From NCBI GenBank assembly GCA_013812995.1, contig JACCSL010000457.1, positions 1 to 5,368 of the forward strand: a stretch of DNA of 5,368 nt. The letters are read 5' to 3'. Below, piece by piece: positions 1-5,368 of the stretch. Position numbers and translations under genes: made by a program. The notes below the pieces were generated by a model that saw only the letters and a program-made list of their open reading frames with translations, was not told the DNA's origin and did not search any database. This DNA is from Ardenticatenales bacterium. GTDB taxonomy: Bacteria > Chloroflexota > Anaerolineae > Ardenticatenales > Ardenticatenaceae. Each line of letters opens with the position of its first letter. The stretch's first letter is position 1.

Positions 1-304
1 CTAGGGCGCTCAAGGCTTCATTCTGGTTCTCTACCGCCACCAGGATGTCGATATCCTTTGTCGCTCGTTCCGGCATATACGCACGAGTCGCAACCCCGCC
101 AATGATGGCCCAGGGAATATCCTGCAAGATAGGTCGCAGATCGGGCCAGGGAATCATGGCAGTTCTCATTTCCAGGAAGGAGGGGGCGCTACCCGTGCCA
201 GGCTTCATCCGCCTCCCACAAAATTCAATCATGAAGCGTCGCCGCTGGGCAGGCGTCAGTTGTCCATCAGGGGCAATGGCGGCGATGGAAGAGGGAATGC
301 TCAT
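1..304 (-). CDS. Nucleotidyltransferase-like protein, N-terminal part (cut by left edge)
   Basis: The frame is open for 101 codons from an ATG at 304 to the window edge, so the C-terminus is missing. Residues 63-89 carry the hallmark of nucleotidyltransferase-fold proteins of the AbiEii/MNT-like kind: a hydrophobic strand ending in Gly-Gly (69-70), then an Arg-x-Tyr stretch, then T-K-D-I-D-I-L-V, in which D84 and D86 would be the metal-binding DxD pair. The first ~50 residues look like a loose, unconserved extension, so translation could instead begin at Met46 or Met50. The ATG at 304 is preferred because AAGGG lies 7 nt upstream and because its ATGA overlaps the stop of the BatA-like gene, the usual arrangement for translational coupling. 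Substrate is unknown: relatives include toxin-antitoxin nucleotidyltransferases, antibiotic-modifying enzymes and uncharacterised housekeeping proteins. The fold assignment is fairly secure; the function is not. Confidence 0.72.
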   Translation of the reverse strand, partial: MSIPSSIAAIAPDGQLTPAQRRRFMIEFCGRRMKPGTGSAPSFLEMRTAMIPWPDLRPILQDIPWAIIGGVATRAYMPERATKDIDILVAVENQNEALSAL

Positions 305-2277
305 GGGGCTGCCCTTCTCGTGCGTAGCCAGCTTCGGGCGCGAGCCACGGCATCTTTCTGGTAAACGAGCCACTCCAGCGCCAGGATAATCAGCCCCAGG
401 AGAAGCAGCGGCTGCCAGAGGTCCAGCCGCGCCTCGCCCGCCAGGCCACTCTCTGGCGTTCCCGCCGCACCCCCGCCCGTGGTTGCCAGCGATAAGCTCT
501 GGGAGGGCGCAATGGCGCTCTCAGTGGGAACGAAGAGATTGACGGTGAAGGCGATTGCGGGCTGCGTGCTCCCCTCCCAGCGCACCGCGTAGATGCCGGG
601 TGTGAGGGGCACATAGGAGGTAGTGGTGGCTCCCGCGTCCAGCCGGGGGCGAATCATCTCACCGCCTGGCGTCTCCACCTCGACATAGTCGGCATCAAGC
701 AGGGGCAGCGTGATGGCCTGCCCCGGTGGCAGGCTCCGCCCGGCTAGGCCACCCGCCGGTCCGGCCAGCAGGTAATCGGCTAAGCTTGCGATGAGCACCG
801 GATAGGTAGGCTGATAGACGAGGTTGCTCATCACCACATCGCGCGGCGGGTCCAGCGTGATGCTCTCCGGAACCCCGTACAGCACCAGGTTCAGCACCGC
901 CACGCGCCGTCCGCCCTGCTCGCCCACCCAGAGGAGCGGCGCACCTGTCGAGCTGTCCTCCAGCACCACGGTTCCCCACGGGGGCACCTCGCCTCGGCGC
1001 GCCTCGACGAAGAAGAGGTCGCTCTCGAAAAACAGGTTCTCCTCCAGCCCCGGCAGGTAGCCGGTTTTGAGCGGGAACGGGTTGGTGATGACGCCGCTTG
1101 TCTGGATGACATCATTCCCCGCAGGCGGCGCGAGGATAAGCAGATTCTCGGTGGTGCCCGGCAACCCCTGGTCGGGCAGCCAACGGTCCAGGATGAGCAG
1201 GTCGGCGCGCGCCTCGCCCGAGGGCTGGACGGTGTCGCTCAGCACATTGCCCTGGCTAAAGCCGTCGCCCACCAGAATCTGGAAGGGAACACGCACGAAG
1301 CGGTTGTCTTTGGAGGCAGTCATCAGGCGTACCTGCCGCGTGCCGGCGGGGCCGGGTACCGCCCAGGCATGGTCATCGCCGGGCAAGGGGTCGTCGCCCT
1401 CCAGCCGCGCCTCCACGCGGAAGCTGTCGCTGCGCTCGACGGGGAAAATCTTCGAGGTCTGCTGACCTGCCGGAATGGCAAGGTCGCTCGCGGTGAAGGG
1501 CTCGTCGTCCAACGTTACCACCAGGCGGCGCTCCGCATTGACCGGGCCATAATTCGTCACCTGGACGAATAGATCATAGCCGCCCTCGCGCGGGCTGAGG
1601 TTGAGCGCGCTGATGGCCTGATTGTTTGCATCGCTGCCAATGGGAACGAAGCGCACGGGCCGCTCCACCGCCAGCGTGGGCGGAAGCTGGACCGCCCCAT
1701 CGCTGAGAATCACGATCTCGCTGTCGGCCTGGCGCGCCGCCGCTGCTGCCGCCAGGGTCAGGGCAGGGCCGAGGTCGCTGTCGCTCGCCAGGGGTTCGAT
1801 CTCGGCCAGAGCCGCGCGCACGGCGACCAGGTCATCGCTGTTGGCGGCCATGATATCCGCGCCATCGCCCGCCCGAATGACCGTCACCCGCCCGTTATCC
1901 GGCAACCCTTCCATCAGGCGCAGCGCCTCGGCGCGGGCTGTCTCCAGGCGCGTTCCCTGCCCGCCATCCTCGGCTCCCATGCTGATGGAGCTGTCGATGA
2001 CCAGGATCAGGCTCTGCCCGGTGGCCCCCGCCGTCTTGAGGAAGGGACGAGCCAGGCCGAAGGTCGCGAGCAGCAAGAAGAGCAACTGGAGCAGCAGGAG
2101 CAGGTTGCGTCGCAGACGCTGCCAGGGCGCGTTCGCCTCGATGTCCTGAACCACCTGCTCCCACAGATAGACGCTGGAAACCAGCACCTCCTCGCGGCGG
2201 CGCTTGAGCAGATACATGGCGATGACGGGGGCCAGCAGCAGCAGGCCGAGCAACCCCAGGGGCGCAGCAATTCCCAT
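301..2277 (-). CDS. BatA-like membrane protein with VWA domain
   Basis: This 658-residue protein has the BatA/aerotolerance-regulator architecture. A hydrophobic segment at about 5-24 is followed by the basic K-R-R-R and the 'SS-x-x-LW' region typical of the BatA N-terminal domain. A second membrane segment lies at about 58-76. A VWA domain spans about 88-215, with MIDAS residues D95-x-S97-x-S99 and D193 in ILSDG. The position normally occupied by the MIDAS threonine appears to be serine (S167 in SDSDLG). Residues ~220-310 look like an immunoglobulin-like (CARDB-type) domain. About 350-500 resembles the GATase-like domain often found in these long BatA-type proteins. A last membrane helix at ~622-638 precedes a basic tail. 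The VWA domain follows the second helix, so it is probably exported with the long middle region; this orientation is an inference. The ATG at 2277 is preceded by AAGG 7 nt upstream. It lies downstream of moxR and DUF58 genes and is presumably their membrane partner. Confidence 0.88.
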   Translation of the reverse strand: MGIAAPLGLLGLLLLAPVIAMYLLKRRREEVLVSSVYLWEQVVQDIEANAPWQRLRRNLLLLLQLLFLLLATFGLARPFLKTAGATGQSLILVIDSSISMGAEDGGQGTRLETARAEALRLMEGLPDNGRVTVIRAGDGADIMAANSDDLVAVRAALAEIEPLASDSDLGPALTLAAAAAARQADSEIVILSDGAVQLPPTLAVERPVRFVPIGSDANNQAISALNLSPREGGYDLFVQVTNYGPVNAERRLVVTLDDEPFTASDLAIPAGQQTSKIFPVERSDSFRVEARLEGDDPLPGDDHAWAVPGPAGTRQVRLMTASKDNRFVRVPFQILVGDGFSQGNVLSDTVQPSGEARADLLILDRWLPDQGLPGTTENLLILAPPAGNDVIQTSGVITNPFPLKTGYLPGLEENLFFESDLFFVEARRGEVPPWGTVVLEDSSTGAPLLWVGEQGGRRVAVLNLVLYGVPESITLDPPRDVVMSNLVYQPTYPVLIASLADYLLAGPAGGLAGRSLPPGQAITLPLLDADYVEVETPGGEMIRPRLDAGATTTSYVPLTPGIYAVRWEGSTQPAIAFTVNLFVPTESAIAPSQSLSLATTGGGAAGTPESGLAGEARLDLWQPLLLLGLIILALEWLVYQKDAVARARSWLRTRRAAP

Positions 2278-2531: not shown

Positions 2532-3422
2532 TTAGCGCAGAACATGCTGCCGCCGCAACAGATTGAGGGTGATCTCTTCCACAGGAATATCGGAGGAGAG
2601 GGTGGCGTAGCCAATACCCCGCGCCCCGCACCAGCGGCGCAGTTCGCCCTGCCATGCCTGGAGGTTGTCGTTGTAGCGCTGGAGCATGGCCGCATCCACG
2701 GTCAGTTCCAACTCCGTCCCCCGTTCTACGTCCCGCAGTCGCACATCTCCGGCCAGGGCAGGAGAAATCTCCTCGGGTGAGAGGAGGTGGAGAACGGTCA
2801 CATCAAAGCGGCGGGTGAGGAGCGCGCGCAGTCCCTCCTGCCAGGTCGGGTCGAAGAGGTCAGAGATGAGAATCAGCGGCCCCGCATATCTGGCTCCCTC
2901 GGCGTAGCGCTTCAGGGTACTACCCAGCGTGGCGGTGCCACCGGCCTGCAAGCCCAGCAGGAACTCGAAGAGATAATGCGCCTGCTGCTTGCCTCGGCGC
3001 GGCGGAAACACAGTAACATCGCCGCCAAAGGTCGAGGCGGTCACGCGGTCCAGCCCTGCCAGCGCGATGTAGCCAAGCGCCCCTGCCACCTGCCGCGCAA
3101 CCAGGAATTTATTGGGCGTGCCCCAATCCATCGAGCGCGAGGTATCCACCAGCAGGTGAACGGTCAGATCCTCTTCTTCTACAAAGAGCTTGAGAAAAAG
3201 TGTTTCCAGTCGGGCGTAGACGTTCCAATCGATCAGGCGGAAGTCATCGCCCCGGCTATACTGGCGATAATCCGCGAACTCCACTGACTGGCCGCGCTTG
3301 ATGCTACGCCGCTCGCCCTGCATCTGCCCGGCGCGGAGGCGCTTGGAAACGAGCACGAGCTGGTCAATCTGCCGGAGAAAGCGTTCCTCGAAAAGGCGGG
3401 GTCGATCTTTGCTATCGGCCAT
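2532..3422 (-). CDS. DUF58 domain protein (MoxR-associated, MIDAS-containing)
   Basis: A soluble 296-residue protein with no membrane segment. It carries the DUF58 signature at residues 51-71 (DYRQYSRGDD followed by R-L-I-DW and AR), which is highly conserved across the family. A VWA-like fold follows, with MIDAS motif D93-T-S95-R-S97, the distal threonine in GGTATLG (T165) and the third-loop aspartate in LISDLFD (D188), so the metal site looks complete. Its length matches the shorter DUF58 proteins that lack the N-terminal membrane helices. Members are nearly always encoded next to MoxR ATPases and are thought to act as their adaptor or partner; the precise role is unproven. The ATG at 3422 has only a distant AGGGA (11 nt upstream), so initiation may be weak. 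A DnaA-box-like 9-mer overlaps the last base of the start codon complement. It lies 139 bp downstream of moxR, and a hairpin follows its stop. Confidence 0.9.
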   Translation of the reverse strand: MADSKDRPRLFEERFLRQIDQLVLVSKRLRAGQMQGERRSIKRGQSVEFADYRQYSRGDDFRLIDWNVYARLETLFLKLFVEEEDLTVHLLVDTSRSMDWGTPNKFLVARQVAGALGYIALAGLDRVTASTFGGDVTVFPPRRGKQQAHYLFEFLLGLQAGGTATLGSTLKRYAEGARYAGPLILISDLFDPTWQEGLRALLTRRFDVTVLHLLSPEEISPALAGDVRLRDVERGTELELTVDAAMLQRYNDNLQAWQGELRRWCGARGIGYATLSSDIPVEEITLNLLRRQHVLR

Positions 3423-3502
3423 TATTCACAAAATCCCTGAGTTATCCACAAGTGACTCCCCTTTTCCACAGCCACCAAAGGAGTTATCCACACTTTTCCA
3501 CA
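3422..3502 (+). promoter_or_regulatory. Cluster of five DnaA-box-like 9-mers between moxR and the DUF58 gene
   Basis: Five 9-mers fitting the consensus TTWTNCACA lie in one orientation: TTATTCACA (3422-3430), TTATCCACA (3442-3450), TTTTCCACA (3462-3470), TTATCCACA (3484-3492) and TTTTCCACA (3494-3502). Start-to-start distances are 20, 20, 22 and 10 bp, close to whole or double helical turns, which would put the sites on one face of the DNA. TTATCCACA is the high-affinity DnaA site known from oriC and from DnaA-controlled promoters. The adjoining stretch 3503-3560 is richer in A+T than the genes around it. No dnaA or dnaN gene is visible. Whether this is an origin, a titration locus or a regulatory region for the DUF58 gene cannot be told here. 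Confidence 0.72.
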
Positions 3503-3529
3503 TCAATTTGCGGCTAGTGCCAAGCTAGG

Positions 3530-3543
3530 CCCTATATTTAGGG
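3530..3543. other. Small AT-looped hairpin downstream of moxR
   Basis: CCCTA (3530-3534) and TAGGG (3539-3543) form a 5-bp stem around a TATT loop, about 19 nt after the moxR stop codon. There is no T tract on the minus strand, so it is a poor terminator candidate. It may equally be the most easily melted part of the spacer beside the DnaA-box cluster. Confidence 0.25.
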
Positions 3544-3561
3544 GTACTGCAAAGTTTCTGC

Positions 3562-4566
3562 TCAACGAGTTGCGGCCCCGGCCAGGGCTTCTGCTGGCAC
3601 CTGTTCCAGGATATTATCCACAATCGTGTCGGTTCCTACCCCTTCCGCCTGTGCCTCAAAGTTCAAAATCATACGGTGGCGCAGCGCGGGTTTGGCCGCC
3701 GCCCGAATATCATCGAAAGCCACATTGAAGCGCCCATCAAGCAAGGCTTTGATCTTCCCCGCTAGAATCATGGCCTGCATCCCACGCGGGCTGCTGCCGA
3801 AGCGGACAAAGTTGCGCACAGAATCAGGCGCAGTGGGGCTATTGGGGTGCGTGGCAGAGACCAGCCGCGCGGCGTAGGTGGTGACATGACTCGCCACAGG
3901 CACCTCACGCGCCAAACGCTGCATGGCAAGAATCATTGGGCCATCGGCGACCTTCTGGAGCGCGATGCCATCCGCGCCCGTGGTGCGCTCCGCGATGAGG
4001 ACGAGATCCTCCACCGAGGGGAAGGGCACATCAATCTTGAAGAAGAAGCGGTCTAGCTGCGCCTCGGGTAGCGGGTAGGTGCCCTCCTGCTCCAGCGGGT
4101 TCTGGGTAGCAAGCACGAAGAAGGGCTGCGGCAGCTTGTGAATCTGCTTAGCGACGGTCACCGTGCGCTCCTGCATCGCCTCCAGCATGGCCGACTGCGT
4201 CTTGGGGGTGGCGCGGTTGACCTCGTCCGCCAGAACGAGGTTGGCGAAGATCGGTCCCGCCTCGAACTGGAAACGCCGCGTGCCGTTCGCGTCCTCGCCA
4301 ATGACGTTGGTACCCACGATGTCGGCGGGCATGAGGTCGGGAGTAAACTGAATGCGGGAAAAGTGAATATCCATCACCTCGGCCATCGTGCGCACCAGCA
4401 TCGTCTTTCCCAGGCCGGGGACGCCCTCCAGCAGGGCATTGCCGCCCGCCAGCAGGGTGACCAGAGTCTGGTGGACCAACTCGCGCTGGCCCACGATGAA
4501 GCGGCCGATTTCATTCTCGATGGTGGCGGCGGTGGCACGGAATTGTTCAGGGGTTAGCTCTGACAT
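3562..4566 (-). CDS. MoxR-family AAA+ ATPase
   Basis: A 334-residue protein of the usual length for MoxR ATPases. All AAA+ elements are present: Walker A GVPGLGKT (48-55), Walker B LVLADE (110-115) followed by the MoxR-typical VNRA and QSAMLEAMQE, sensor 1 asparagine in ATQNP (N156), the EGTYPLPEAQLDRF block with a likely arginine finger at R173, and sensor 2 in SPRG (R261). MoxR proteins form oligomeric rings that remodel or activate client complexes, usually with DUF58 and VWA partners, both of which follow here. The ATG at 4566 is chosen because GGGAGA (4576-4571) sits 4-5 nt upstream; an in-frame TTG at 4578 would swallow that ribosome-binding site. The stop is 139 bp before the DUF58 start, a wide gap for this normally compact pair. 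A perfect DnaA-box 9-mer lies inside its 3' end (3614-3622). Confidence 0.94.
   Translation of the reverse strand: MSELTPEQFRATAATIENEIGRFIVGQRELVHQTLVTLLAGGNALLEGVPGLGKTMLVRTMAEVMDIHFSRIQFTPDLMPADIVGTNVIGEDANGTRRFQFEAGPIFANLVLADEVNRATPKTQSAMLEAMQERTVTVAKQIHKLPQPFFVLATQNPLEQEGTYPLPEAQLDRFFFKIDVPFPSVEDLVLIAERTTGADGIALQKVADGPMILAMQRLAREVPVASHVTTYAARLVSATHPNSPTAPDSVRNFVRFGSSPRGMQAMILAGKIKALLDGRFNVAFDDIRAAAKPALRHRMILNFEAQAEGVGTDTIVDNILEQVPAEALAGAATR
3614..3622 (+). promoter_or_regulatory. Sixth DnaA-box-like 9-mer, inside the 3' end of moxR
   Basis: A perfect TTATCCACA on the plus strand, in the same orientation as the five boxes in the spacer and 111 bp beyond the nearest of them. Read on the minus strand it encodes Val-Asp-Asn within the moxR C-terminus. 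It may be part of the same DnaA-binding region, or a chance consequence of those codons. Confidence 0.45.
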
Positions 4567-4618: not shown

Positions 4619-4742
4619 TGGATAAGGACGTTTGGAAGGGTTGGTAAAACGTAAAACGTAACTGCTTCTGACGGAATTTGTGGTATGGAAGAGGGGAAGC
4701 GTGCCATGCGAGCCCTCTCCCCCACGTCGCTGCGCTCCGTGT

Positions 4743-4768
4743 CCCCTCTCCCGACATCGGGAGAGGGG
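4743..4768. repeat. Central palindrome of the intergenic element
   Basis: CCCCTCTCCCGA (4743-4754) and TCGGGAGAGGGG (4757-4768) are perfect 12-bp inverted repeats separated by only two bases (CA). It could extrude as a cruciform or fold as a very stable RNA hairpin. No T tract follows on either strand, so it is not a typical intrinsic terminator. Confidence 0.8.
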
Positions 4769-4882
4769 CGGCCGAAGGCCGGGGAGAGGGCCACCACGCA
4801 GAGCCACCCCTCAACCACAAATTCCATCAGAACCAGAAACGTAATGGACTCTGGGCGTCCGCTGTGTGGGGTAGCGAAGTCG

Positions 4883-4910
4883 TTTTACGTTTTACGCATT
4901 ACCTTTTACG
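4883..4910 (+). repeat. Heptamer tandem array TTTTACG
   Basis: Four 7-bp units follow one another: TTTTACG, TTTTACG, CATTACC, TTTTACG. The left end of the element carries the inverted counterpart in units GGTAAAA, CGTAAAA and CGTAACT (4643-4663). The 7-bp periodicity at both ends suggests these arrays belong to the element rather than to flanking sequence. Confidence 0.7.
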
Positions 4911-4938: not shown

Positions 4939-5368
4939 CTAGTTGCCGCTAATCCGGCGTTGGTACTGGATGATGAGGTCCTCGTAGTAGCCGGAGAGGG
5001 GAGGTCGATCCTCGCCCGCGTAGCTGCCGGAGTCAAAGCCCCCGGAGAAGCTGCTCCCAGGCACAATTGCGCCGTTGTCCACCCCCGCCTGGGAGCCACT
5101 ACCCTCGCGCTCCTGCGTCTCCCCCGTGCTGCCCTGCTGCCCCTGAACGAGGTCGGGGTCGCCCCAGGAAGGAACGAGAACCTCCTCGTTGCCGCCACCG
5201 AAGTTCGGATCGCCTTCCACCGCGCCGGGGCCGGATCGATCGGGGTCGCTGCCTGCAAAGCTGCCGCTTCCGGTGCGCCCGCCGCCATCGGTGGGAGAGT
5301 TTGAACCCCCACCCCCGCCGCCCGGCTGACCTTGTCCCTGACCCTGACCCTGACCCTGACCCTGACCT
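4939..5368 (-). CDS. Glycine-rich (Gly-Gln)n-tailed protein, C-terminal part (cut by right edge)
   Basis: The frame is open from the right edge for 142 codons to a TAG at 4941-4939; the N-terminus lies outside the window, so the GTG at 5220 need not be the true start. The visible part begins with seven Gly-Gln dipeptides, then a glycine run, then a low-complexity stretch rich in Gly, Ser, Asp and Pro, with FGGGNEEVLVPSWGDPDLV near the middle. Only the last ~18 residues (LSGYYEDLIIQYQRRISGN) look capable of regular structure. No membrane segment or catalytic motif is seen. I do not recognise a family. From memory, long membrane proteins encoded beside moxR in Chloroflexota often end in a similar disordered Gly/Gln-rich tail with a short helical end, which would fit, but this is a weak inference. 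Coding status is supported by in-frame repeats and synonymous change (GGA CAA among GGT CAG codons). Confidence 0.62.
   Translation of the reverse strand, partial: GQGQGQGQGQGQGQPGGGGGGSNSPTDGGGRTGSGSFAGSDPDRSGPGAVEGDPNFGGGNEEVLVPSWGDPDLVQGQQGSTGETQEREGSGSQAGVDNGAIVPGSSFSGGFDSGSYAGEDRPPLSGYYEDLIIQYQRRISGN
5336..5365. repeat. Hexamer tandem repeat CCCTGA, five copies
   Basis: Five perfect head-to-tail copies of CCCTGA on the plus strand, read on the minus strand as GGT CAG codons that encode Gly-Gln. Because the unit is six bases, gain or loss of copies keeps the frame. The repeat reaches almost to the window edge, so its full length is unknown. Confidence 0.9.

Follow-up and report, generated by a model that had tools for sequence, protein, structure and literature searches.

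The window, by which is meant the whole 5,368-nucleotide stretch of Ardenticatenaceae DNA that was analyzed, carries genes for a BatA/VWA protein, a DUF58 protein and a MoxR AAA+ ATPase, together with a row of DnaA boxes in the spacer between the latter two:

301..2277, minus strand: BatA/VWA protein gene (PF07584 and PF13519), downstream neighbor of DUF58
2532..3422, minus strand: DUF58 protein gene (PF01882, E 1.2e-34), with the array just upstream, in its presumed 5' leader
3422..3430, plus strand: DnaA box TTATTCACA, exact TTWTNCACA match, array offset -20, sharing one base, the first, with the DUF58 start codon
3442..3450, plus strand: DnaA box TTATCCACA, exact match, array offset 0
3462..3470, plus strand: DnaA box TTTTCCACA, exact match, offset 20, where G001, G002, G004 and G005 also have a box
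3484..3492, plus strand: DnaA box TTATCCACA, exact match, offset 42, where G001, G002, G004 and G005 also have a box
3494..3502, plus strand: DnaA box TTTTCCACA, exact match, offset 52, where G004 also has a box and G002 one with a single mismatch
3503..3561, no strand: remainder of the moxR-DUF58 spacer, about 47% GC, without a DnaA-trio, with a palindrome-like CCCTATATTTAGGGG near 3530
3562..4566, minus strand: moxR AAA+ ATPase gene (PF07726, E 1.1e-62), upstream of DUF58 and in the same direction
3614..3622, plus strand: sixth exact box TTATCCACA, within the 3' coding end of moxR, off the conserved register and of doubtful role

Exact matching confirmed the five sites described in a sequence-only reading of this DNA, namely TTWTNCACA in one orientation at 3422-3502 with starts 20, 20, 22, and 10 bp apart, and the place named there is a real moxR-DUF58 spacer, bounded by the stop codon of moxR (3562) and the start codon of DUF58 (3422). 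The stability of a hairpin in this spacer is no greater than that of shuffled sequences (z -0.44). Elsewhere in the window, a short tandem repeat (ACCCTG) occupies the end (5332-5368) and gives a Gly-Gln repeat in the open frame 4939-5367. The spacer upstream of moxR (4636-4905) shows by eye GTAAAACGTAAAACG on one side and its inverse CGTTTTACGTTTTACG on the other, with CCCTCTCCC...GGGAGAGGG between them, and is perhaps a repeated or mobile element.

DnaA boxes are sparse in the window's own assembly, G000 (5,031,308 bases in 1069 contigs), where 108 exact TTWTNCACA matches correspond to about 0.12 per window length; among the 100 of these 108 places listed, three matches inside 300 bp do not recur on any other contig. 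Two boxes on G000:C893 were considered as a second cluster and set aside, as they lie among tRNA genes by eye. When up to one mismatch is allowed, the window contains 9 matches, whereas 200 dinucleotide shuffles average 2.56 (sd 1.57) and always stay below 9. A Poisson estimate puts a same-strand cluster of five boxes, at any place in the assembly, at about 1.6e-12. The low genome-wide density and the shuffles both count against a chance cluster or an assembly artefact, and the recurrence of the array in five genomes, separately assembled relatives included, refutes this explanation, which has next to no probability left.

A search for DUF58 homologs in 60 genomes returned same-family matches in G001-G005, with orthologs that are 53-57% identical. 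At least four boxes in the same orientation lie just upstream of DUF58 in G000 and in four of these five relatives, that is, in five of six Ardenticatenaceae genomes, while G003 has a single box. In an ungapped alignment, offsets 0, 20, and 42 are common to all five arrays, offset 52 to G000 and G004 (with one mismatch in G002), and offsets 63-64 to four. The boxes called for in the same spacer of related genomes are therefore present and in the same register, and their conservation in place supports the part of the sequence-only reading that proposed a DnaA array and control site. Pairwise identity over the five arrays is 85% in box columns and 34% in spacer columns; because of this difference the boxes appear to be under selection, most likely for DnaA binding, and boxes that are kept amid changing sequence are the mark of a putative protein-binding array. 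The array keeps to DUF58 in G001 and G005, although moxR is not adjacent there. A slightly closer DUF58 homolog from another family (L003 in G012, 59% identity) has no nearby box. A wider survey took the best 80 of more than 555 DUF58 relatives in a named genome collection, 4 of the 80 with less than 500 bp of upstream sequence. Three of the 80 are family members (two arrays and one single box), and among the other 77 the array was found in none and a lone box in 2; these 77 include L207, labeled Ardenticatenaceae, whose DUF58 is 46% identical and has no box. Within the genomes surveyed, the array is a trait of this family.

The same early reading had allowed for an origin in this spacer, with the flank at 3503-3560 as its unwinding region. 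According to the excerpts of PMC8287927, a BUS-type oriC is defined by a box, a spacer of up to 16 bp and at least three trios. Spacers resembling this layout were found elsewhere in the family. In G000, the predicted oriC (L108, G000:C697, 10698-11085) lies 3' of dnaA on a separate contig from the window, and consists of degenerate and exact boxes followed by TCATCCACATATCCCCAGCCCCTACTACCACTATAAAAGATATAATG, which contains a box, a GC cluster, and a DnaA-trio; a selA-like gene comes next. The same 3'-of-dnaA layout is found in G006, a member of the same order without a DUF58 match. In G001-G005 an oriC-like spacer with boxes and a trio or trio-like motif lies upstream of tsaD (L128-L132); the trio scan finds four of the five, and in G004 the trio-like CCTACTACGTCTA was recognized by eye. 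The 3.2 kb around the dnaA end of G001-G005 holds 0 or 1 exact boxes, and the scan found no trio near this end in G001-G004, the reading having been extended to larger stretches in G001, G003, and G004. All seven oriC spacers (six from the family and that of G006) share a triple at 0/21/41 in map order, each member with at most one mismatch, and the member nearest the trio is TTATCCCCA in all seven. The predicted origin and dnaA thus seem to have parted within one family, since it lies 3' of dnaA in G000 and upstream of tsaD in G001-G005. An origin at dnaA was considered for G002 and rejected, as GC skew is negative in 24 of the 25 stretches examined (of 36 20-kb stretches) on the dnaA contig; the sole non-negative one adjoins dnaA.

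Trios were located with a home-made scan whose first threshold missed all five tsaD spacers; relaxed to score 11 plus 3 GC, it found four and missed G004. At score 11 the 700 kb of G002:C5 give a single match, at 451182 upstream of tsaD, and the 11.7 kb of G000:C697 likewise give one, 3' of dnaA; the 500 kb sampled from the G002 dnaA contig and the five DUF58 arrays (L053-L057) give none. This setting also gave extra matches in L132, L302, and L304, and because it missed 13 of 26 loci in another family, f53, absence at score 11 alone is weak; hence a relaxed scan was applied. In the relaxed scan, the best scores at the five DUF58 arrays were 0-10, as in random pieces, and with thresholds that were fixed after the sites had been seen, a score of at least 11 was reached by 19 of 26 other f53 loci, 0 of 5 f53 satellites (trio-less triples, see below), 0 of 5 DUF58 arrays, and 4 of 400 random pieces of G002. 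A strict trio pattern run on seven genomes recovered the oriC spacers of G001, G002, and G003. In G000 it matched one unrelated place instead of the trio there, and it failed to pick up G004, G005, and G006. The GC content is 43.2% in the array, 46.6% in the flank, and 62.5% in the window. The flank is less GC-rich than its surroundings, as had been pointed out, yet it is not AT-rich, and with 33.3% GC after the G000 trio, its proposed use as an unwinding region is not supported.

The position of the array relative to oriC can be read in the best-assembled relative, G002, in which contig C5 (700,437 bp) was covered in all but its last 437 bases. Cumulative GC skew along C5 is V-shaped with a minimum near 435 kb. 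The array lies at 436973-437045 and the tsaD spacer at 450.8-451.3 kb, so that array and trio are 14.1 kb apart. There are parS-like sites at 462.7 and 464.4 kb, one of them exact. The skew minimum is 2 kb from the array and 16 kb from the predicted oriC, which agrees with the earlier suggestion that a minimum might fall here, but GC skew is unable to separate two sites that are only 14 kb apart. Strict boxes (TTWTCCACA) are concentrated in the same region: of the 23 on the 700 kb contig, 13 are no more than 30 kb away from the tsaD spacer, and the remaining 640 kb contains 10. When the array and oriC are subtracted, 5 origin-near strict boxes remain as compared to 0.94 expected, and a reversed control pattern has 0 of its 3 sites in this zone. 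In G004 an inversion has shifted oriC relative to the array, probably to about 42 kb as judged by synteny, and the array is still beside DUF58. Array-oriC distances come from G002 (measured) and G004 (synteny), whereas G000, G001, and G005 give none, in the case of the window's own genome because its contigs are short. The array may lie near oriC in the family, at 14.1 kb and about 42 kb in these two genomes.

A scan for three in-phase boxes was extended to 298 genomes of the class. A phased triple occurs in 51 of them and the reversed control pattern in none, and G000, G001, G002, G004, and G005 each yield a single phased triple, the DUF58 array. Among matching genomes outside the family, 13 of 34 have a triple directly 3' of dnaA (loci examined), and the register of the array resembles the 0/20/41-42 of those triples. 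This resemblance, together with the nearby skew minimum in G002, would fit a chromosome origin at the array, or an origin in two parts, with DnaA assembly at the array and unwinding at a place kilobases from it. However, the array has neither a trio nor an AT-rich flank, all six predicted oriC spacers own a triple (at most one mismatch in each member) with a trio or trio-like motif, and the oriC of G000 lies 3' of dnaA as in G006, a genome without a DUF58 match. An origin at the array is rejected as the best reading because the trio, the AT-rich stretch, and the oriC-like layout are all found elsewhere, and we consider it improbable. Of the original proposal, then, the DnaA array and control site is supported, while an origin within the moxR-DUF58 spacer is not, given the spacers with a trio or trio-like motif 3' of dnaA or upstream of tsaD and the trio-less arrays.

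Triples that are separate from a predicted origin also occur in another family. In f53, 32 of 61 genomes have a phased triple and four of 61 (G242, G270, G308, and G352) have phased triples more than 1 kb apart. Each of these four has one triple with a trio 235-293 bp away, and five trio-less triples lie 2.1, 17.9, 20.6, 23.4, and 29.2 kb from the trio-bearing one:

G242:C9:182737, trio-less f53 satellite
G270:C13:225026, trio-less f53 satellite
G308:C8:109130 and 114599, trio-less f53 satellites
G352:C25:42544, trio-less f53 satellite

The neighbors of the G242 and G270 satellites are, by eye, genes apparently unrelated to DUF58, and an exact parS-like site (109192) lies 13 bp from the end of the G308 satellite at 109130. 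G117, G134, and G219 have a second phased triple on another contig, outside the closeness comparison. The common factor of the satellites, where measurable, is closeness to the predicted origin. A chance product computed from three satellite distances presupposes uniform placement, was calculated post hoc, and is a guide only. In L038 (G260:C44), about 600 bp (1468-2065) contain 23 exact boxes that point one way and a single one that points the other way, with a trio at the end; this is an unusually large oriC-like array.

A second motif is shared by oriC and some of the arrays. The oriC spacers of six family genomes contain a palindrome near CYACWASATSTWGTRG, with best scores of 13-16 of 16. 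Upstream of nrdR the same motif forms pairs spaced by 32 bp (L272-L276) in all but one of the six genomes in which that gene was found; the exception is G006, and G000 yielded no nrdR gene. NrdR boxes are described in the excerpted text of PMC12051234 as two 16-bp palindromes with 15-16 bp between them, an expectation that the paired motif upstream of nrdR appears to fit. The 700 kb of G002 contain only three NrdR-like sites with a score of at least 14, of which two lie in oriC and the third in the DUF58 spacer; this scarcity is partly circular because the consensus was drawn from such sites. A fixed NrdR pattern applied to whole genomes matched five places in G002 (one in coding frame) and none in G001 and G005. 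The DUF58 spacer of G004 has one NrdR-like box at the same offset as in G002, and such a box is absent from the array spacers of G000, G001, and G005 and from upstream of DUF58 in G003. In the window, CCCTATATTTAGGGG scores only 11/16, and the best candidate in the spacer (12/16) was discarded as not above background (173 such sites in 700 kb of G002). NrdR and fork speed are the subject of PMC12075136, as far as its partial text goes; none of the literature matches listed describes, in its title or in the opening of its abstract, NrdR boxes located at an origin. It is possible that NrdR-like boxes in oriC spacers would link deoxynucleotide sensing to initiation.

The constant association with DUF58 could also mean that the array is a DnaA-controlled operator, in which leader-bound DnaA tunes or blocks transcription and has no role in initiation; this would tie DUF58, a MoxR-partner protein, to the replication cycle. 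Each of the five array genomes has the array immediately in front of the DUF58 start, whether or not moxR is adjacent, and a gene-regulatory role explains equally well why it stays with DUF58 in G001 and G005. In these two genomes a promoter-like site just upstream of the array places it between the predicted +1 and the start codon; in the window the only promoter-like site falls inside the array, and G002 has none, so that both lack such a site upstream of the array. There is precedent in B. subtilis, where DnaA regulates sda, ywlC, and other genes (PMC4447404, in the part seen). On the other hand, the 77 non-family DUF58 relatives among the best 80 of more than 555 are without the array, the f53 satellites share closeness to a trio-bearing triple and not a gene (G242 and G270, where examined), and the DUF58 spacers of G002 and G004 carry an NrdR-like box, as oriC does. 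An operator without any role in initiation is possible but less likely than the reading given below.

Alternatively, the array might have no present function and be left over from a former origin, or have been copied from an origin as a fragment. The predicted origin has moved within the family, since G000 has it 3' of dnaA and G001-G005 have it upstream of tsaD, and the array is nearly lost in G003, as would be expected of such a remnant. Against this, the boxes were conserved while the bases between them diverged, which implies continuing selection, and a functionless relic is quite unlikely.

Taken together, the five sites are best read as a satellite DnaA-box array, apart from the predicted origin, that probably gathers DnaA near the origin and would in this way restrain the frequency of initiation (probability about 0.6). 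Among the observations that weigh against this reading are these: G003 retains one box only, the array of G004 would be some 42 kb from oriC, and the skew minimum of G002 is nearer to the array than to the predicted oriC. DnaA would most likely bind the boxes as a one-direction row, two helical turns apart. The array would be duplicated soon after initiation and then take up free DnaA, acting as an early-replicated sink. Because the array lies between the predicted promoter and the start codon in two relatives, DnaA bound in the DUF58 leader would be expected to hinder DUF58 transcription too, and perhaps the array also dampens DUF58. A broader scheme can be put forward as a speculation: Anaerolineae-class Chloroflexota may combine an oriC (phased triple and trio) with one or more mobile, trio-less phased satellites within tens of kilobases, beside unrelated genes; in the Ardenticatenaceae the satellite would have become tied to DUF58, and the deoxynucleotide sensor NrdR would act directly on initiation through its boxes at oriC and also, in a single genus, through those at the satellite.

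To our knowledge, E. coli and B. subtilis are the main organisms in which DnaA titration sites have been described. A literature search for Anaerolineae with DnaA box gave no match, and none of the matches listed on DnaA boxes, Chloroflexi, and oriC treats such an array, judging by title. A phased, one-orientation satellite whose register is kept amid changing surroundings is a simple cis-element in a little-studied phylum, and offers a way to ask whether origin-proximal DnaA sinks arise repeatedly.

Among known systems, the array shares with the BUS-type oriC (box, GC cluster, DnaA-trio) the same boxes in a similar 20-22 bp phase. A DnaA-box cluster is present, but the box-spacer-trio arrangement and the AT-rich unwinding element of such an origin (PMC8287927, excerpts) are absent, and the predicted oriC of the family lies elsewhere. 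Like the DnaA-regulated promoters of sda and ywlC in B. subtilis (PMC4447404, in part), it has boxes upstream of a gene; unlike them, its gene belongs to the DUF58 family, and the likeness is drawn from sequence. In E. coli, box density peaks near oriC, and the DnaA-binding locus datA, which is close to oriC, lowers DnaA activity (PMC12371093 and PMC5010248, as excerpted). The G002 array and the excess of strict boxes near the predicted oriC recall this zone. datA acts together with IHF and promotes ATP hydrolysis (PMC5295017, excerpt), whereas the array resembles it in its boxes and, in G002, its position. According to the available portion of PMC5010248, the function of datA in E. coli is itself disturbed by transcription that runs through the locus. 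The DnaA-box clusters (DBCs) outside oriC in B. subtilis cause early initiation when six are deleted together, and their nearness to oriC matters (PMC5295017 and PMC5010248, seen in part). The array differs from the DBCs in being a single short row with strict phasing and one orientation, placed upstream of DUF58 and known from sequence; with the DBCs and datA it has in common that it is a cluster of DnaA boxes separate from oriC, which in this family is a predicted one.
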